Shown in pieces: positions 4,809 through 12,815 of a stretch of 64,000 nt of DNA. The stretch comes from Isosphaera pallida ATCC 43644 (lineage in GTDB: Bacteria; Planctomycetota; Planctomycetia; Isosphaerales; Isosphaeraceae). The notes below the pieces were generated by a model. That model did not search any database. It was not told the origin of the DNA and worked only from the letters and a program-made list of their open reading frames with translations. The position numbers and the translations under genes were made by a program. How positions within the stretch are numbered: position 1 is the first letter of the stretch; the number at the start of each line of letters is the position of its first letter. The stretch lies in contig NC_014962.1 of the NCBI RefSeq assembly GCF_000186345.1, forward strand, positions 1,922,001 to 1,986,000, written 5' to 3'.

Positions 4809-5105
4809 ATGTCCTACGATCCGTCGGAACCGTCCGGGTTGCAGGTCACGTTCCTGGACCAGTCGGGCGCTAAATCGGTACGGGCGGTGATCGCTTACAC
4901 CGTGCCGGTCAGTCGAATTTTACCCAACATCATCGCCAAACTGAATCTGCCCACCATGAGTCCCGATGGTCTACCGGTCAGCTACCGGCTGCACCATAAG
5001 GAGGGCGGTCGTCAACTTGACGATGCGATGACCTTGGTGGAGGCCGGAGTCCGTCAAGGCGATCACCTGATTGTCTCGCCCGAAGCCACCGCCGGCGGGC
5101 TCTGA
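4809..5105 (+). CDS. Ubiquitin-like (beta-grasp) protein with C-terminal Gly-Gly-Leu
   Basis: This 98-residue protein is the likely modifier of an adjacent conjugation system. The pattern (a hairpin, a VSRILPNIIAKLNLP helix, a YRLHHKEGGRQL strand and LDDAMTLVEAGVRQGDHL) matches the YukD/EsaB-like branch of the ubiquitin fold, including the 'tolerant loop then Leu-x-x-x-x-Val' layout. It ends AGGL, so a diglycine is capped by one extra residue, as expected for a precursor trimmed by the JAB protease encoded downstream. ATG follows GGGAGG at seven bases. The E2, E1 and JAB genes lie downstream on the same strand. Alternatively it could be an unconjugated YukD-like protein, but the neighbours and the GG argue against that. 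Confidence 0.82.
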   Translation: MSYDPSEPSGLQVTFLDQSGAKSVRAVIAYTVPVSRILPNIIAKLNLPTMSPDGLPVSYRLHHKEGGRQLDDAMTLVEAGVRQGDHLIVSPEATAGGL

Positions 5106-5553
5106 GGCGCTCGGAATCGACCAGGAAGAGTTCGATCCGAAGGTGCGCGGCACTCGAATTGGTATTCTATCCACCTCCTCGTTTGCTTGCGATGTGGTTT
5201 GGCACCGGCGGCGCGGCCACCTCCGGTCTGGTCTTGCAAACCGAACCGACACGCTTGTTGCGGTCCGCGTCGTCGTCACGGCGCGGATCGCGCTCCCATC
5301 CCTGGCCGAATGTGGCGTTACCTTGTGTTGGACGGTCCCTTGGCCGTCAGTCGCGCCGACCCGTTGCTGATCCAAAGCTCGCGGCGTCCCTGGTCTTTCC
5401 TTGACGGATCGGGAGCGTCACAATGGCGTCGAGGGAGTCGGTAAGTGGGGTTCCTTCCTTCACCGTCACCCAAGGCGGCGGAACCTCGCTCTCACACGAC
5501 GACGCTATGACGAAGAGCTGCGTGACGACGCGGTTTTGGGAGACTTCCCCGCG
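5106..5553 (+). other. Gap between Ubl and E2 genes; uncertain E2 start, possible tiny ORF
   Basis: This is an unusually long spacer for an operon whose other genes overlap. The E2 frame is open back to a TTG at 5401, without an obvious ribosome site. A separate frame at 5310-5444 (44 codons, beginning MWRYLVLDGPLAVSRADPLL) looks somewhat protein-like but has no ribosome site and overlaps the E2 extension. I see no clear terminator. Confidence 0.35.
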
Positions 5554-6195
5554 ATGTGGCTGACCACGCCTCCGCCTGACACACCTCGGATCCGCCGTCT
5601 GAGAAACGACCACCGGACTCTGGAGCGCCTGCGCGACGAAAGCACGGTTTTTGACTTCGAGGCGTCCGGCGGCAATCCGCCCACCTGCTATCTCGTGACC
5701 TTTCGAGGCGTCGGATTGGCTCGTCGCCATGACAAAATCGGCTTGGTCCACGAGCATCGTGTCGAGGTCAAGCTGATTGGATCCTATCCCCGGACCATGC
5801 CCGAACTGCGCTGGCTGACGCCGATTTTTCATCCCAACATCGCGGAGTCGGGGATGGTTTGCATCGGCGAGTTCGGTACCCATTGGGCCCCGAGCGTGGG
5901 ACTGGACACGCTTTTGAGCATGTTGTGGGATATGGCCCGTTACCTCAATCACGATCCCCGTAGCCCCTTCAACCGCGACGCGGCCGCCTGGCTGGTGAGC
6001 CAAAGCGTTTACACCTTTCCTCTGGATCGACGTCCTTTGCGGGATCGGCCCCAGGTTGTTCCGCCGTCGGACCCGGCGACACGCTCGGAGAACCCCGGGT
6101 CCGCACCACGTCGATCTGAAGCCACGCGGCCCCAGCCAACCATGTCGGCTTCCCAAGCCCTGCGGGACGACTCTGAGATCCTCTTTTTGGATTGA
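5554..6195 (+). CDS. E2-like ubiquitin-conjugating enzyme (UBC fold)
   Basis: This is a bacterial E2 that would accept the Ubl as a thioester from the E1 and pass it to a target. The UBC core is clear: the VEVKLIGSYPRTMPEL strand region, the HPN triad (residues 93-95), then the catalytic cysteine in GMVCIGEFG (Cys103), followed by W-x-PSVGLDTLLSML and a helix ending PFNRDAAAWL. This is the same order as eukaryotic E2s. A tail of about 60 residues, rich in Pro/Arg/Ser, ends DDSEILFLD and might recruit a partner. ATG 5554 has GGGAG 11 bases upstream; an in-frame TTG at 5401 would add 51 basic residues, so the start is uncertain. The stop overlaps a possible start of the E1 frame, suggesting coupling. 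Confidence 0.85.
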   Translation: MWLTTPPPDTPRIRRLRNDHRTLERLRDESTVFDFEASGGNPPTCYLVTFRGVGLARRHDKIGLVHEHRVEVKLIGSYPRTMPELRWLTPIFHPNIAESGMVCIGEFGTHWAPSVGLDTLLSMLWDMARYLNHDPRSPFNRDAAAWLVSQSVYTFPLDRRPLRDRPQVVPPSDPATRSENPGSAPRRSEATRPQPTMSASQALRDDSEILFLD

Positions 6196-6230
6196 TCGGT
6201 TCCTTCTCCCGCCCCCTGGAACCAGGTCCG

Positions 6231-7574
6231 ATGAAGATTCCCGGCGACTTTCCTTCCGACTCGTCCCCCCGCAATGCGGAGGACCTCCAATTTTTGGAGG
6301 AGCCGACTGATCCTGACCGGCCCGTGCTTGACGGCTTGGCGACCCCGGTTGGCGACGATGAACCGTTGCGGATTGACGACGAGGATCGTTACGGACGGTT
6401 GAGATTGATCCCTTGGTGGCGTCAGGAGCGTCTGGCGGCCTCTAAGGTGATGGTCGTGGGAGCCGGGGCTCTAGGCAACGAGGTGGTCAAAAATCTCGGC
6501 CTGGTCGGGGTCGGTACCATCGTGGTGATCGACTTCGACCGGGTTGAACCCACTAACCTGTCGCGGTCACTCATGTTCCGCCGCGAGGACGCAGGCCGTC
6601 CCAAGGCCGAGGTGCTCGTGGAACGCCTGGCTCAACTCAACCCGGAGGTCCGGGGCCACGCGATCGCGGGCGACGTGATCCACGATGTTGGTCTGGGGCT
6701 GTTCGCCGAGATGGACGTCATCCTCGGTTGTCTGGACAACCGTGAAGCGCGGCTTTGGGTCAACCGTCAAGCCCGACGCGCGGGAGTCCCCTGGATCGAC
6801 GCGGGCATCCAGGAAATGCATGGAGCGATCAAACTTTTCACGGACCCGAACGCGGCCTGTTACGAATGCGGTTTGACCGACGCCGATTACCGCGCCCTCA
6901 ACACCCGCTACTCCTGTCCCCTGCTGTCGCGTGACGATTTGCAGCGTGGCAAGGTGCCGACCTCACCCACCATCGCTGCGATCATCGCCGCGCTGCAGGC
7001 TCAAGAAACGCTCAAACTGCTCCACGGTCTGCCGGTGGCTCATGGATGCGTGCTGGTCTTCAACGGCGTGGGCAACCTGATGTTCCAATCCCGGTTGCCC
7101 GTCAATCCCCATTGTTTGGGCCACGAGGACCGTTTGAGCTGGATCCCCCTGGCATTGAGCCACAACGCGGCGGTGAGCGACCTGTTCGCGCACCTCAGAA
7201 GGTTAGAAGGGTCACGGTTCGACCCTGGGTCGGACGATCCTACGTCCCAGGCCCTAACTCTGGTGTTGGAGCGGGAATTGGTCACCACGATTGATTTTGG
7301 AACCAACCGACCGCCTCGAAGAGTGATGAAGCCGAGGGATCGGGTGGGTTTGTCGGAAGCGATTGACCCCCGCGACGGTTCGACCGGACGACCAATCACC
7401 CTGGATCGGGTCCGCGAAGGCTCGCTTGAGGCCAACTGGGCGCTGGCCGAGTTGGGCATTCCCGCCCGCGACGTAGTTTGGGTCGAACGCTCCGACGGCG
7501 CGGGAGCCTGGTTCCTGCTTAGTGACGACCAACCCGTTTTGGAGACGCATCGGGCAGGAGACCCTCGCCGATGA
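6231..7574 (+). CDS. E1-like ubiquitin-activating enzyme (ThiF/MoeB/UBA fold)
   Basis: This 447-residue protein would adenylate the Ubl C-terminus. The nucleotide-binding core has GAGALGNE (residues 77-84), IDFDRVEPTNLSRS with the acidic ribose ligand and Arg finger, then FRREDAGRPKAE with the conserved Lys. A CxxC (Cys210, Cys213) looks like half of a zinc site, with a further Cys in NPHC later. Cys229 in RYSCPLL is the candidate thioester cysteine. The last 150 residues form an extra domain I cannot name. ATG 6231 is chosen; the frame also opens at TTG 6192, overlapping the E2 stop (TTGA). Its end overlaps the JAB start (ATGA). The E1 is separate from the E2, unlike the E1-E2 fusion Cap2 of CBASS. 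Confidence 0.88.
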   Translation: MKIPGDFPSDSSPRNAEDLQFLEEPTDPDRPVLDGLATPVGDDEPLRIDDEDRYGRLRLIPWWRQERLAASKVMVVGAGALGNEVVKNLGLVGVGTIVVIDFDRVEPTNLSRSLMFRREDAGRPKAEVLVERLAQLNPEVRGHAIAGDVIHDVGLGLFAEMDVILGCLDNREARLWVNRQARRAGVPWIDAGIQEMHGAIKLFTDPNAACYECGLTDADYRALNTRYSCPLLSRDDLQRGKVPTSPTIAAIIAALQAQETLKLLHGLPVAHGCVLVFNGVGNLMFQSRLPVNPHCLGHEDRLSWIPLALSHNAAVSDLFAHLRRLEGSRFDPGSDDPTSQALTLVLERELVTTIDFGTNRPPRRVMKPRDRVGLSEAIDPRDGSTGRPITLDRVREGSLEANWALAELGIPARDVVWVERSDGAGAWFLLSDDQPVLETHRAGDPRR

Positions 7575-9019
7575 GCGCCACGCCTCCGCCCAACGACGAG
7601 ATTGCCTTTGGCGAAGTGACCCGGCGTCAGCCGCGGGTGCTCACCCGGCCCGACCGCGATCCCTCGTGGGCCTGTTTGACCTACGGCACGGTCGATTCGC
7701 GGAACCCGCCGATCTTCCTCGATCTCGAGGCCGCCGACGCGATCGAACGGCACGCCCTGTCCGACCGCGACGTGGAACTCGGCGGCGTTCTGCTAGGACG
7801 CGAGGGAATCGACCCCGACGACCACACGGTCTTTGTCAGGATCGACGCCTATTTGCCAGCTACTGACTACCGAAACACCCAAGCGAGTTTCACCTACACC
7901 CACGAAACCTGGAGCGAGATTCATCGTCTCAAGGATGAACGTTATCCCGACCTCGACATCGTGGGTTGGTTCCATACCCACCCCGACTTCGGCGTGTTTC
8001 TTTCAGGACATGACCGCTTCCTGCATCAAAGCTTCTTCCCGGAGCCACTTCAAGTCGCCTACGTGGTCGATCCCATCCGCCGCACCCGTGGCTTCTTCCA
8101 GTGGCGCGACGGCAAGCTCGTCGCGGCGAGTGGGTTTTGGCTGTTCGCCCCCGCGTATCGCCGGGTCGCTCTCGCTCAGTTTCTGGATGACCTCGACATC
8201 CCGTTGGCCGACTCTCTCGACCCCAACGCCTTGCCCGACCTCAAGGCGCTCGGGTTGTCCCCTCGCTTGGAGGCGGAACTGCTCGCCATGATTGAAACCA
8301 CCCGTCGCCTCGCCGCTGGCTCACTCCCAACATCCTCCTCGCCGGCCACCCCATCCACTCTGCTCGCCATAACGACCGGCGTGACCGGACTCCTTCTAGG
8401 GGTGGTTTTGACCTTGCTGTTGGTGGCAATTGGTCTGACCCGCGACAGCCTGGAGCGCCAAGCCAACGAATTGCAAGCGCTGCGAACTCAACTCGACCAA
8501 CGCGAAGCCCAAACCACCCTGCTTTTGGACACGCTGAGCCAAGCGGTCGATCCTACCAAGCTCGATCAGGCGTTGACCTCCACCAACGCCCGCCTCCTCC
8601 AACAAAAGCAGCAACTCGCTCAGGAAGCCGAAATCTTGCGCCAGGCTCGTCTGGATCTGGATCAACGGATCCTCAACCTGGAGCGCGATTTGTCCGTGGT
8701 GGTGACCGAACGCGACAACCTGGCGACACAACTGCAAACCGCTCGGGATACCCAAAACCGTTTGGAACTCACGGTGAAGCAACTCGACCCCGAGAACCTC
8801 CGCCTCGTCAACGAACAGCTTGGTCTGGTCAACGCCCGACTCTGGTGGGCGGTCGCCGGTTTGTCCAGCCTGACCCTCGGCTTGACGGCGACGACGGTGA
8901 TCCTTTATCTTCGCCGTCATGATCCACCCACTCGCTCGCGTGTGGGCGTTTTGCATCCCGGAGAGGAGCACCGGAGCGACGACGGCAAAAGTTCCTTCCC
9001 CCCATTCCAAACTCAGTAA
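7571..9019 (+). CDS. JAB/JAMM metalloprotease with two membrane helices and a coiled coil
   Basis: This 482-residue protein has an N-terminal Mov34/MPN-type JAB domain (residues about 45-205) with a full JAMM set: Glu69 in ELGGVLLG, then His135, His137, Ser145 and Asp148 in HTHPDFGVFLSGHD. JAB enzymes of this sort trim ubiquitin-like precursors or remove them from targets. A helix at 264-289 (rich in Leu/Val) is a predicted membrane segment. Residues about 290-415 form a heptad-rich coiled coil (many Gln/Leu/Glu), and 424-447 is a second membrane segment, followed by a basic tail. The topology therefore puts the JAB domain and the tail on one side and the coiled coil on the other. It starts inside the E1 stop (ATGA overlap), so it is translated with E1. 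Confidence 0.9.
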   Translation: MSATPPPNDEIAFGEVTRRQPRVLTRPDRDPSWACLTYGTVDSRNPPIFLDLEAADAIERHALSDRDVELGGVLLGREGIDPDDHTVFVRIDAYLPATDYRNTQASFTYTHETWSEIHRLKDERYPDLDIVGWFHTHPDFGVFLSGHDRFLHQSFFPEPLQVAYVVDPIRRTRGFFQWRDGKLVAASGFWLFAPAYRRVALAQFLDDLDIPLADSLDPNALPDLKALGLSPRLEAELLAMIETTRRLAAGSLPTSSSPATPSTLLAITTGVTGLLLGVVLTLLLVAIGLTRDSLERQANELQALRTQLDQREAQTTLLLDTLSQAVDPTKLDQALTSTNARLLQQKQQLAQEAEILRQARLDLDQRILNLERDLSVVVTERDNLATQLQTARDTQNRLELTVKQLDPENLRLVNEQLGLVNARLWWAVAGLSSLTLGLTATTVILYLRRHDPPTRSRVGVLHPGEEHRSDDGKSSFPPFQTQ

Positions 9020-9419
9020 ATTGATTGTCCAACCTAGGCGTTCGCCATTCGGAAATCACCCCTCCTTCTCCAGAAGTGAACAAGCGGTCGCCGTTGAACC
9101 GCAACAAAGCGTTCCCTCTGGATCGATTTAACCACCCGGGTTGACTCCCATTCGCGGGGTTGGTTTGGGTTGAGGTTTCCCGGCATGTGGTTTTTTTTCG
9201 GATCCAGCCCCAAGCGTCGAGGGTTGTTAGAACGTAGGGACTGAGGAGGCGCGTTGGTGAAGAACCGATGTTGGACCCGGATTCCACCCATGTTCGCCCG
9301 ACGCATATGATACCGGCACCGATCCCACGAAACCACGTCACCCATTGGGAATGGCGGCCCAAATCGCGGCCGTTCGTGGTCGATCCGGTTCCCCTCCATC
9401 CTTCTTTGAGGCGCGCAGG
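9020..9419 (+). other. Non-coding stretch between JAB and MMPL genes
   Basis: Four hundred bases without a credible gene. A run of eight T at about 9192-9199 follows GC-rich sequence, but I could not assign a clean hairpin to it. The stretch probably ends the ubiquitin-like transcript and holds the promoter of the following operon. Confidence 0.4.
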
Positions 9420-12400
9420 ATGACCCTGCTGCATACGCTCCACGCCAACGTCCTCTGGAAAGCCGTCACGCGCCGCCCTTGGTTCACGATCGCCCTTTGG
9501 ATCACCTTGAGCGTGGTCCTGACCCTTACTGCGCCTGACTTGACCAAAGTGGCTTCGGAGAACGAAGGCGATTTGGTCCCCAACTCGCTGGAAAGCGTCC
9601 AAGCGATGCAGAAAGCCCAGGAGGCGTTCCCCGACCTGGTTCCAATCTCGCGGGTGATCCTGGGGCTCCGACGCGAAGAGGGCTTGACCCGGGCCGATCG
9701 GGAGTTCGCCGCCACAATTCAGCGGACCCTCTCCAACGAGTCCCCACCGGTCACTCCTTCGCCGATCATTAAGGTCAACGGTCCGGACTCCAAGCCGGAA
9801 ATCGCTCAGTTCCTGGCCAGCGCTGACGCCCGCATCCAGCTGGTGGACATTCCGCTCAACGCCTCTTGGGCCTTGCCCAAAACCCGCGAAACCTTGGATT
9901 GGATTCGCCGGAGAGTCGAGGAGCTGCCGGCCCCCGACGGTCTGGAGATGATCTGGACCGGCGACGCGGTCCTCGGCGTGGAGTACATGCAGGCGGTACA
10001 AACGACGCTGGACCGGGCGGCCGTGGCCACCGTGATCCTTTTGACCCTGGTGTTGATGTTCGTTTACCGCTCGATCTGGTTGACGATCGTGCCGATGCTC
10101 ACCATCGGGATCAGCTTCCTCATCTCCCGAGGCATTTTGGGCTTCCTGTCGCTGGTGGGCTGGGAAGTCACCATGCTGGTGGAACTGTTCCTGATCGTGG
10201 TCTTATTCGGCTCAGGAACCGATCTCTGTCTGTTCCTCACCTGGCGCTTCGGCGAACGTTGGACCGGCGAGGACGCGCCCCGCGAACTGCGCTCGACACT
10301 GCGTCGCGCCGCCTGGGCGGTCATCTCTAGCGCGGGGACCGCAATCATCGCCTTGCTGCTGATGAGCTTCAACAACTTCAAACTCTTCAGCCGCACCGGA
10401 CCCAGCGTGGCCCTCGGGCTCACAGTCGGGCTGGCCGCCTCACTGACGCTTTGCCCTGCGCTCCTGACTCTGATGGCGCGATACCACCCTAAGGCATTCC
10501 GCGACTTCAAAGACCACCGACCACGGTTTTGGCATTGGGTCGGCGACGCAGTCCTCCGTCGTCCTCTGGTCTGTTGGCTGGTCTGCCTGGCAGTGATGAT
10601 CCCGCCGGCCTTGTTCTTCTTCCGTGTGCAAACCACCAACAACATGTTGGCGGAACTGCCCCGCGACACCCCCTCCCAACGCGGCGTCGACCTCATCGAC
10701 GAAGTCATGGGCAAGGGAACCACCAGCCCTTGGACCGTCATCCTCAAAACCCGGCGCGACACGCAGCGGCTCGACAACTCGCTGGGTCTGGCCACCATCG
10801 ACGACTTCAGCCAACTCATCGCACGTAAAACGGATTGGGCCGCCCGAGTGCGCTCCGCCACCCAACCGCTGGGCGACCAGACCCAACTCGAACCAGCCCG
10901 CCTTTTCAACCGTTTGACCAAAATCCATCAAGGCGTTGGTGAACTGGAAAACGGCACGGAGAAAATCGGCCGAGGTCTCCGATCCGAAGTTTTCAAGCGG
11001 TTCACCAACACGACGGTCTTGACACCCGCCAACTCCAAGCGAACCTCGGATCCCGCTCCGCGTGACCCGTCGTGGGCATCCACCGCGTCCCTCCCAAGCG
11101 ATCGAGCTGCCTCCGATGATCCAGATCAAAAGGAGGCCAAGGCCGCGCGGCCATCGCCCGAGCAGAACCGGGATTCCAGTTCCGTCGGGGCCAGTCTGGC
11201 TCGCTTTTTCACCCAACGCCGTCCCCTAGCCGCCTCTCCCCCCAGCCACAAAACGCCAGCCGACGACCCCGCCCCGGATTTCCCCCCGGCAATTCTGCCC
11301 CATCCCGACGCCGAGACCATCCCCGAATCGGTTGATGTCACCACGACCACAAACCTGAACCGTGACCAAAACTCCCTCGCCCCCAACCACGAGCAACCGC
11401 GGACCCTGGATGATCACGTGCGGTTCGCTGCCGGAAGTGAGGATGAACCTTCCTTGGGGCGTCGCTTGGCTCAGATGATGCTTCGAGTTGCTCCGCTCAC
11501 GAGTGACCCATCCAGCGCCTCGGCGTCAACACCTCCGATTGCCCCAACCACTCCCACCCCGTCTCAACCACAAGCCGCAACTGCGTCCGAAAAGGGTTCT
11601 CAAAGTCAAAAGTTAGAGGAGTTGATCGATGGAATCACCAAAATTTCCAACGGCATCAAGGAAGTCAACAGCCAAATCGGCGTGATTCTGCGCGATCCCT
11701 CGGCACCCAAGTTTCTCAAGCGGTTGTTGATCTCGGAACAGGATCTGTCGGAATTTCCCCAGATTCGAGCTAGCCTCGATGCGTTTATCTCGCCCACCGG
11801 TCACCTCGCTCGCATCGAGGTCGCCCCGCTCACGGAGCCTTATTCCGCTGAGGCGCGTCAAGCCGTTGAGGAACTGCGACGGGAACTCAAAGCATTGGGC
11901 AACGACCACGATTTGGTCCGGGTTGATGTTGAAGTCACCGGTCCCGATGCCCTCTCGCTTGACTTGCAGGGGCTGACCCGCACAGATCAACGGCTTGCCT
12001 ATGTGATCATCCCTTTGGGAATTTTCGCCGTCCTCTGGTTGGCAATGCGCGACATTGGAGTGTGCGTCAATCTTGTGGGCACAATGGCGTTGACCTACAT
12101 GGTCTCGATGGGTCTCACCTATCTGGTGTTTGTCGGCTGGCTGGGTTCCAGTGGCGTGGATTGGAAGGTGCCCTACTTCCTGTTCGTCCTGCTGTTGGCC
12201 ATTGGGGTCGATTACAACATTTTCCTGATGACCCGCATCCGCGAAGAGACCAAACTGCATGGCTTTGAGCGTGGCATTGCGCTTGGGATTGGCACGACTG
12301 GAGCCCTCATCACCTCCGCGGCGCTGATCACGGTGGTCTCATTCGCCTGCTTCATGCTCAGCCCTCTGTCCTCGATTCGTCAACTCGGCTTTGCCCTGGT

Positions 12401-12815
12401 GGTGGGGATCACCATCGACGCCTTGGTGGTCCGCCCGGTGTTGATGCCGTGCGGCCACTGGTTGCTGGAGCGTTACCGCGCCATCCGAGACGAGGACGAC
12501 AGCAGTGACGAAGTGCCTCCCGTGCCCGAACCCACGCCCGCACACCACGACGACGACACCGACGCGACTTTTCCACGTCCGCGTGCCATCGGAAACCCGG
12601 ACGCCTCCTCCTCCTCCGCTTCAACCTTGGCCAACGGCCACGCTGCGTCTCAACCAGGCAAAGATCACGTTCACGAGTCCGTGCCCGGCGACAATCCGTC
12701 GGCCCTGATCGCTGCGTTGCTGAGAAATCGAGGCGAGGGGCGCGAACACGACAACGCCAAAGTGTCCTCTCCCGCGCGACCCCAAGCTGAACCCGACGGA
12801 GGGTCATCCCGGTGA
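9420..12815 (+). CDS. MMPL/RND-superfamily transporter with long disordered insertion
   Basis: This 1131-residue inner-membrane protein has the duplicated RND layout: TM1 near residues 20-37, an extracytoplasmic domain, TM2-6 (about 205-345), TM7 (about 375-395), a second extracytoplasmic domain, and TM8-12 (about 855-1020). It carries the MMPL/RND signature GVDYNIFLMTRIREE (about 930) and GSGTDLCLFLTWRFGE in the first half. Such proteins export lipids or hopanoids by proton motive force. About 200 residues (roughly 525-725) of Pro/Ser/Thr-rich sequence interrupt the second extracytoplasmic domain, and the C-terminal 120 residues are also low-complexity. ATG 9420 follows GAGG at eight bases. 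It overlaps the next gene by four bases, so this transporter, the lipoprotein, the ABC ATPase and the permease look like one operon. Confidence 0.85.
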   Translation: MTLLHTLHANVLWKAVTRRPWFTIALWITLSVVLTLTAPDLTKVASENEGDLVPNSLESVQAMQKAQEAFPDLVPISRVILGLRREEGLTRADREFAATIQRTLSNESPPVTPSPIIKVNGPDSKPEIAQFLASADARIQLVDIPLNASWALPKTRETLDWIRRRVEELPAPDGLEMIWTGDAVLGVEYMQAVQTTLDRAAVATVILLTLVLMFVYRSIWLTIVPMLTIGISFLISRGILGFLSLVGWEVTMLVELFLIVVLFGSGTDLCLFLTWRFGERWTGEDAPRELRSTLRRAAWAVISSAGTAIIALLLMSFNNFKLFSRTGPSVALGLTVGLAASLTLCPALLTLMARYHPKAFRDFKDHRPRFWHWVGDAVLRRPLVCWLVCLAVMIPPALFFFRVQTTNNMLAELPRDTPSQRGVDLIDEVMGKGTTSPWTVILKTRRDTQRLDNSLGLATIDDFSQLIARKTDWAARVRSATQPLGDQTQLEPARLFNRLTKIHQGVGELENGTEKIGRGLRSEVFKRFTNTTVLTPANSKRTSDPAPRDPSWASTASLPSDRAASDDPDQKEAKAARPSPEQNRDSSSVGASLARFFTQRRPLAASPPSHKTPADDPAPDFPPAILPHPDAETIPESVDVTTTTNLNRDQNSLAPNHEQPRTLDDHVRFAAGSEDEPSLGRRLAQMMLRVAPLTSDPSSASASTPPIAPTTPTPSQPQAATASEKGSQSQKLEELIDGITKISNGIKEVNSQIGVILRDPSAPKFLKRLLISEQDLSEFPQIRASLDAFISPTGHLARIEVAPLTEPYSAEARQAVEELRRELKALGNDHDLVRVDVEVTGPDALSLDLQGLTRTDQRLAYVIIPLGIFAVLWLAMRDIGVCVNLVGTMALTYMVSMGLTYLVFVGWLGSSGVDWKVPYFLFVLLLAIGVDYNIFLMTRIREETKLHGFERGIALGIGTTGALITSAALITVVSFACFMLSPLSSIRQLGFALVVGITIDALVVRPVLMPCGHWLLERYRAIRDEDDSSDEVPPVPEPTPAHHDDDTDATFPRPRAIGNPDASSSSASTLANGHAASQPGKDHVHESVPGDNPSALIAALLRNRGEGREHDNAKVSSPARPQAEPDGGSSR

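Follow-up and report, generated by a model that had tools for sequence, protein, structure and literature searches.

A YukD-type ubiquitin-like protein encoded with E2, E1 and JAB genes in Isosphaera pallida: a probable membrane-associated protein modification system

The DNA analyzed here (the window) is a stretch of 64,000 nucleotides from the planctomycete Isosphaera pallida ATCC 43644 (contig NC_014962.1; G000:C2:1922001-1986000 in our numbering), and positions given below are window positions unless prefixed with C2 or a locus handle (L). Four genes on the same strand (4809-9019) encode a ubiquitin-like protein (Ubl), a ubiquitin-conjugating-type enzyme (E2), a ubiquitin-activating-type enzyme (E1) and a JAB/JAMM-family protease (JAB). 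The genes, with lengths in amino acids (aa), and the spacer between the first two are the following:

4809-5105, plus strand: Ubl, 98 aa, YukD-type beta-grasp protein (Pfam YukD, 55.3 bits, E 1.1e-14)
5106-5553: spacer of 448 bp from Ubl to E2, without a recognisable gene
5554-6195, plus strand: E2, 213 aa from ATG 5554 (UQ_con, 47.1 bits, E 2.4e-12)
6231-7574, plus strand: E1, 447 aa from ATG 6231, one ThiF domain (175.6 bits, E 1.2e-51)
7571-9019, plus strand: JAB/JAMM protease, 482 aa (Prok-JAB, 29.7 bits, E 6.3e-7; JAB, E 2.7e-6)

The Pfam matches of all four products (YukD, UQ_con, ThiF and Prok-JAB/JAB) exceed the curated cut-offs, and are therefore not chance matches. All four frames are open with their catalytic residues kept, and the ATGA at 7571-7574 is both the stop of E1 and the start of JAB. 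The original prediction, made from the sequence letters, had described these four genes with their families and the ATGA overlap, and further an E2 with HPN and the catalytic Cys103, an E1 with an adenylation motif and a candidate thioester Cys, and a JAMM protease with a complete metal site; all of this was borne out, as detailed below. An alternative E1 start, TTG 6192, overlaps the E2 stop. The spacer was considered as a remnant gene, which was rejected, since comparison of 5106-5572 with the fetched loci gave no similarity (best blastx E 0.05, best blastn E 0.27). In the whole genome, over-cut-off matches to YukD, UQ_con and PF14446 are found once each, the first two at the operon, and matches to Prok-JAB and ThiF twice each. 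The second Prok-JAB match is stronger (78.7 bits) and lies elsewhere (G000:C2:3350575-3350940). A second ThiF-family gene, probably MoeB-like, is located 0.2 kb past the window end.

Homologues of the E1 protein were found at 124 bits or more in 30 of the 392 genomes of the phylum; a more permissive tally (107/392) was not used, because many of its matches, at about 75 bits, look like ordinary MoeB/ThiF. Within the family, E1 is present in 38 of 45 genomes at E 1e-30, including 23 of the 26 near-complete ones, so that the planctomycete homologues sought by the original prediction exist and the operon is not unique. When the E1 sequence was used alone to scan genome contigs, there were no matches. 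A search with a 17-row E1 alignment gave at least 548 relatives, the best 80 of which were kept, and counts out of these 80 named loci describe the closest relatives only. Almost all of them are titled Planctomycetota or families within, including Singulisphaera acidiphila, Aquisphaera insulae and Tautonia sociabilis. The exceptions are one locus titled only 'bacterium' and single metagenome-assembled genomes (MAGs) whose contigs carry the same cluster under the titles Abditibacteriales (L167), Candidatus Riflebacteria (L180) and Deltaproteobacteria (L205). Hidden Markov models built here detected E2 in 77, JAB in 76, Ubl in 74 and a RING protein in 51 of the 80 loci. The uninterrupted order Ubl-E2-E1-JAB occurs in 47/80, with RING following JAB in 23/80 and preceding Ubl in 9/80; in other orders JAB lies between E2 and E1, or E1 comes first. 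Also the E1 tree called for by the original prediction was built, and in this tree of 69 rows the window E1 falls into a 15-row group with named Isosphaeraceae (support 100/99). Judged by these searches, the system is widely kept, mostly planctomycete and near universal in the family.

Two partly overlapping sets were used for the Ubl and JAB comparisons, since several of the named loci come from genomes that also have G handles. The first set (57 Ubls, 56 JABs) left out L063-L068, with weak E1, and L072-L090, which repeat, in shorter form, genomes covered from L091 on (though a few were not fetched again). The named set comprised 74 Ubls. The motif P-E-x-x-A-G or S-T-F-V-A-G near the end is present in 57/57 Ubls of the first set, 18 of which stop exactly at the Gly; in the named set the AG end was recognized by pattern in 73/74 and by eye in the 74th. 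Exactly at AG end 40/73 named homologues, and the others carry tails of 1 to 21 residues sharing no sequence beyond a frequent first residue, Arg (12) or Ser (7). Such an unconserved and often absent tail is as expected of a trimmed precursor. A Gly directly follows AG in 5/73, and the conserved C-terminal Gly-Gly of ubiquitin-type modifiers is thus not a feature of the Ubl family in these 73 homologues. Since AG is kept and the tails vary, the window Ubl, which reads ...TAGGL, is best divided into the conserved ...PEATAG (Gly96) and a two-residue tail, GL. The letters GGL given in the original prediction are therefore correct, but their reading as a conserved GG tail is not: what the homologues conserve at the end is -AG, so that the GG of this protein is incidental. 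It follows that the expected trimming by JAB amounts to two residues here and none in many relatives; in those ending at AG it would be expected to serve deconjugation alone. The corrected end matters to anyone making mature Ubl for assays. In L117:8493-9176 the Ubl frame continues after ...PEITAG into a 146-aa C-terminal extension with a zinc ribbon and hydrophobic stretches, all of which JAB would need to cut off.

With ATG 5554, the likeliest start of E2, the catalytic Cys is residue 103; counted from TTG 5401 it would be residue 154. The spacing from HPN to this Cys is that of Ubc13, which is also the best match among solved structures (E 9e-10). Cys at HPN+8 is found in all 59 named loci with a single E2. 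In 18 further loci (L152, L154, L155, L157, L158, L160, L167, L168, L170, L172, L173, L178, L179, L181, L183, L185, L200 and L209), mostly of the order Ubl-E2-JAB-E1-JAB-E2'-RING, a second E2 lacks the Cys at the catalytic position (18/18), and is a bacterial look-alike of the UEV/Mms2 E2 variants.

Cys229, the candidate thioester Cys of E1, is invariant in the 17/17 aligned homologues; other Cys and His residues of the protein include a CxxC (210/213) together with C295 and H298. The best solved sequence match is human UBA7 (E 1.5e-29), and the best NCBIfam models are ThiF/MoeB, below their cut-offs. A predicted model (pLDDT, the model's predicted local confidence, 82.4) consists of a MoeB/ThiF-like adenylation domain, matched best by ThiF (Z 29.8) and MoeB (Z 29.6), and a C-terminal domain. 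Residues 54-433 of the model align through the C-terminus to the SUMO E1 subunit SAE2 (9dqb_B; Z 26.9, 302 residues, 4.2 A). The structural matches spanning both domains are eukaryotic E1s bearing a ubiquitin-fold domain (UFD), and the C-terminal domain of the model follows the part of SAE2, UBA7 and UBA1 that carries the UFD, at a root-mean-square deviation (rmsd) of 4 to 8 A.

The metal site of JAB is made up of E69, H135, H137 and D148. The JAB domain covers roughly residues 48-190, and the protein matches Rpn11/PSMD14 (E 8e-8). The rest of the protein contains a membrane helix at 271-289, predicted by hydropathy, a coiled-coil-like stretch and, close to the C-terminus, another hydrophobic stretch, which falls below the helix threshold. 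A membrane helix is predicted in 45/56 JABs of the first set.

The protein with the single PF14446 match of the genome is encoded outside the window:

G000:C2:4808142-4809080, minus strand: RING protein, 313 aa, PF14446 (Prok-RING_1) match at C2:4808220-4808348

The original prediction had called the operon complete. The four genes are there, but completeness is doubtful, as a RING protein is encoded near the operon in many relatives and is unlinked here. Relatives of the RING protein are present in 40/45 family genomes at E 1e-5, with G407 being weak (7.7e-7) and therefore left out of the co-occurrence tally, which took 39 RING genomes. Both E1 and RING are present in 36 of the 45 genomes; two have E1 alone, three, all fragmented drafts, RING alone, and four neither. 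All four genomes of one genus (G423-G426) are without both, perhaps by natural loss. Of the 36 genomes with both, 17 have RING at most 6 kb away from E1, and in all 14 stretches fetched from these 17 it is 5' of Ubl on the same strand; in the other 19 it is far away on the same contig (6, as here) or on another contig (13). The eight zinc ligands (C4HC3) are invariant in 15/15 aligned RING proteins and are all kept in the I. pallida copy, and Prok-RING_1 matches all 15 with E values of 1 or less, down to 1.2e-11. A hydrophobic helix is found in 55/62 RING-protein frames of the named loci. In distant loci with the order Ubl-E1-JAB-FHA protein-RING proteins-E2, PF14446 proteins are encoded between JAB and E2. 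Two loci of the order Ubl-E1-JAB-FHA-RING-RING/trypsin-E2-DUF2752 encode a RING fused to a trypsin-like protease domain (PF14446 + PF13365), namely L042:14395-15744 (scanned) and L049:3923-5230 (by similarity).

A model of the RING protein (pLDDT 84.6; pTM, the predicted score of the overall fold, 0.65) has a helix at 2-32, a middle domain at 38-223 and a zinc domain at about 240-297. The middle domain resembles mycobacterial TtfA (6t84; Z 15.2, 159 residues, 3.3 A) at an identity of 9 to 11 percent, and in Foldseek TtfA (E 4.3e-6) is the sole match under 0.001. Translocon chains were also met as matches of this domain, 7tm3_4 (Z 13.0, rmsd 12.7), 9i78_4 (Z 11.1, 10.1) and 6w6l_7 (Z 10.6, 3.4), and set aside because of the Foldseek result; we take these chains to be CCDC47. 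The structural matches of the zinc domain are weak, with ZZ domains slightly above RING/U-box, and the call of a ubiquitin-ligase-type protein (E3) therefore rests on the Pfam family and the context. On these grounds the RING protein is a probable E3 of the system.

The operon is followed by a transporter gene:

9345-12815, plus strand: MMPL-family resistance-nodulation-division (RND) transporter, starting 325 bp 3' of JAB (MMPL, 310 bits)

This gene holds the strongest of the 13 MMPL stretches in the genome; its TIGR00833 score, 402 bits, is below the cut-off of 875. Among 27 family loci (L119, where no JAB was found, was left out) an MMPL relative on the same strand, at most 1.75 kb 3' of JAB, is present in 12, although only 1.4 to 3.0 kb 3' of JAB is covered in L113, L115 and L122, too little to judge MMPL. 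A membrane M48 protease (PF01435, PF16491) is encoded 3' of JAB in 15/27, and upstream in one more. Both linkages come from one family and partly reflect shared ancestry. The neighbours of the operon that were tested are a lipid A acyltransferase, a methyltransferase, a leucine-rich repeat (LRR) protein and the MMPL transporter, the last of which is a candidate functional partner. In mycobacteria, residues 1-205 of TtfA, helix included, are described as binding the MMPL transporter MmpL3 (PMC6593404, in part).

Taken together, the locus likely encodes a reversible, membrane-associated ubiquitin-like protein modification system. JAB would trim the two residues after Gly96 of Ubl, E1 would adenylate Ubl and load it on Cys229, and the UFD-like C-terminal domain of E1 may help to pass it to E2, which would take it on Cys103. 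The RING protein encoded elsewhere would act as the E3, with its N-terminal helix holding it in the membrane and its TtfA-like middle domain choosing the targets, and the membrane-anchored JAB would take Ubl off again. A site at the membrane is proposed because of the helices in RING proteins and JABs and the M48 protease after JAB in family loci, and membrane proteins or complexes bound to the membrane are the probable substrates. Feeding of a 20S proteasome was considered and is unlikely, since the only PF00227 match in the genome is HslV. The cycle of processing, conjugation and deconjugation put forward in the original prediction is hence still the best reading of the motifs, the conserved order and the co-occurrence, although the completeness attached to it is doubtful, the GG is not the conserved tail and the Bil comparison is not supported.

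Several observations weigh against such a system. The RING gene is unlinked, 2.88 Mb from E1 along the contig, and PF14446, at 31.6 bits in the genome search, reaches only 28.0 against a cut-off of 29.1 on the scanned protein. The best Z of its zinc domain is 6.1 for ZZ and 5.5 for RING/U-box, all below Z 8. The co-occurrence of E1 and RING (Fisher p 0.003) ignores kinship, and the four double absences are a single genus. A membrane helix is missing from 11/56 JABs, no JAB was found in the fetched family locus L119, and no M48 relative was found in the I. pallida genome by a search without a positive control. The window E1 sits on a long branch (1.11 in the 69-row tree) and lacks two C-terminal CxxC pairs present in 14/17 aligned E1s. 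Also Bacillus YukD is reported as not conjugated (PMC1779556, in part).

Some of these features, together with the 448-bp spacer, would suit a decaying relic, i.e., a locus being lost in this species: the long E1 branch, the unlinked RING, the M48 protease not found and the lost CxxC pairs. We consider this quite improbable, as the catalytic residues are intact, the four frames are open and the RING protein keeps its eight zinc ligands. Furthermore, in 19/36 family genomes with both genes RING lies farther than 6 kb from E1 or on another contig, although the 13 with different draft contigs do not show the distance, and L092 and L100, too, lack the CxxC pairs of the E1 C-terminal domain (about 7150-7574 in the window). 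The Ubl could alternatively be a sulphur carrier of the ThiS/MoaD/Urm1 type with E2 and JAB as accessories; the ThiF domain of E1 is nearest to ThiF/MoeB both by structure and in NCBIfam, and a JAB is able to trim sulphur-carrier precursors. Against this stand the HPN + Cys E2 of every single-E2 locus, the UFD-like E1 domain, the co-occurring RING and the second, probably MoeB-like gene just past the window, which make it very improbable. Least credible is a Ubl that is a structural part of type VII (ESX/Yuk) secretion, like YukD/EsaB. YukD is the best Pfam family, EccD matches weakly and one WXG100 match in the genome is over the cut-off (29.9 bits), but the latter is about 250 kb away and no type VII gene was found among the neighbours scanned; type VII neighbourhoods are described as holding an FtsK-like ATPase, a kinase and membrane proteins, and not E1, E2 and JAB (PMC1779556, in the parts available).

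The same general parts list is found in anti-phage defence of the Bil, Bub or CBASS (cyclic-oligonucleotide-based anti-phage signalling system) type, in which Ubl would be attached to proteins of the phage or its host in the course of infection. In PADLOC, 33 families match E1, and E1-E2 proteins account for 24/25 of the matches listed, with a top score of 77 bits; the scores of JAB models are low, 19.9 bits at most. However, PADLOC gave no match for Ubl or E2, BilD reached only 25 bits on E1, and in PADLOC and NCBIfam no specific system exceeded the curated cut-off. The presence of E1 in nearly all near-complete family genomes looks like that of a core gene, not of a sporadic defence island, the tree places it with named Isosphaeraceae, and the tested neighbours point in the same direction. 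We therefore regard defence as unlikely.

The modification system favoured here may extend to the transporter. In this more speculative and rather doubtful proposal, a membrane Ubl ligase would control the MMPL lipid transporter, its E3 being a TtfA-like MMPL-binding protein with an added RING. By the same tentative proposal, a RING-Ubl-E2-E1-JAB-(M48)-MMPL set might modify, release and, with M48, remove the transporter or its complex. This seven-gene order is assembled from several loci, the window itself having Ubl-E2-E1-JAB-MMPL. If true, bacteria would have an equivalent of the control that ubiquitin exerts over membrane transporters. Apart from that, the five genes (Ubl, E2, E1, JAB and RING) may be a whole cascade in one bacterium, kept across the family, and the analysis offers a testable idea of the site of action, the membrane, and of a candidate partner, the MMPL transporter. 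No paper listed by the literature searches looked like experimental work on a YukD-Ubl system that includes a RING E3, which is weak evidence of absence, since most subscription papers were outside the search.

Comparison with known systems first concerns CBASS, the Cap2/Cap3 proteins of which provide E1, E2 and JAB activities. Cap2 is an E1-E2 fusion. Here E2 and E1 are separate genes, accompanied by a Ubl gene, and the Cap2/Cap3 comparison of the original prediction thus found no Cap2-type fusion. BilABCD likewise has Ubl, E2, E1 and JAB in four genes, but there are two Ubl domains in BilA, the site of BilB is CEHH and BilD has two adenylation domains (PMC11354881, in part), whereas here the Ubl of 98 aa has one YukD stretch, E2 has an HPN site and E1 has one ThiF stretch in 460 aa. 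With these differences, the low BilD score and the core-like distribution of E1, the anti-phage comparison in the original prediction was not upheld, nor did PADLOC give a close match to Bil. By the features tested, the system is neither Bil nor CBASS. Bub operons are also bacterial Ubl conjugation operons; 219 of 544 have CapW or CapH+CapP, and 59 have CapK/CapS (PMC13373217, in part). Among the neighbours scanned no regulator of the CapW, CapH+CapP or CapK/CapS type was seen, although no search was aimed at them. TtfA of the mycobacterial TtfA-MmpL3 pair shares with the RING protein a membrane helix and the predicted fold of the middle domain; no RING is described on TtfA in the available parts of its account (PMC6593404).

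In the ubiquitin operon of Caldiarchaeum subterraneum, ubiquitin, E1, E2, a RING E3 and an Rpn11-like JAB are encoded in one cluster (PMC4197634, in part). The I. pallida operon differs in having no E3 gene, a YukD-type Ubl that lacks a conserved GG end and a JAB with a predicted membrane anchor, and HslV is the only PF00227 match of the genome. By analogy, we propose that the system works like the eukaryotic and Caldiarchaeum cascades. Burroughs, Iyer and Aravind reportedly predicted in 2011 bacterial E1-E2-RING-Ubl cascades near the eukaryotic design. By the features reported for it, the system fits this YukD-Ubl/E2/E1/JAB/RING kind, with the probable RING gene split off: a YukD-type Ubl is encoded with E1, E2 and JAB, and E2 has the HPN and Cys. 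The UFD-like domain in the E1 model may correspond to the C-terminal UFD of that kind, and the unlinked PF14446 gene may be its RING gene. Set beside that kind, the -AG end of Ubl, the TtfA-like domain of the RING protein and the MMPL and M48 neighbours are further features here. The operon types 6a-6e of Iyer 2006 have no YukD Ubl among them in the parts of that paper available (PMC1779556). A 'complete tri-ligase' Ubl system is mentioned with reference to Burroughs 2011 (PMC7159879, in part), and Planctomycetes are named, with the same reference, among the carriers of related operons (PMC4197634, in part).

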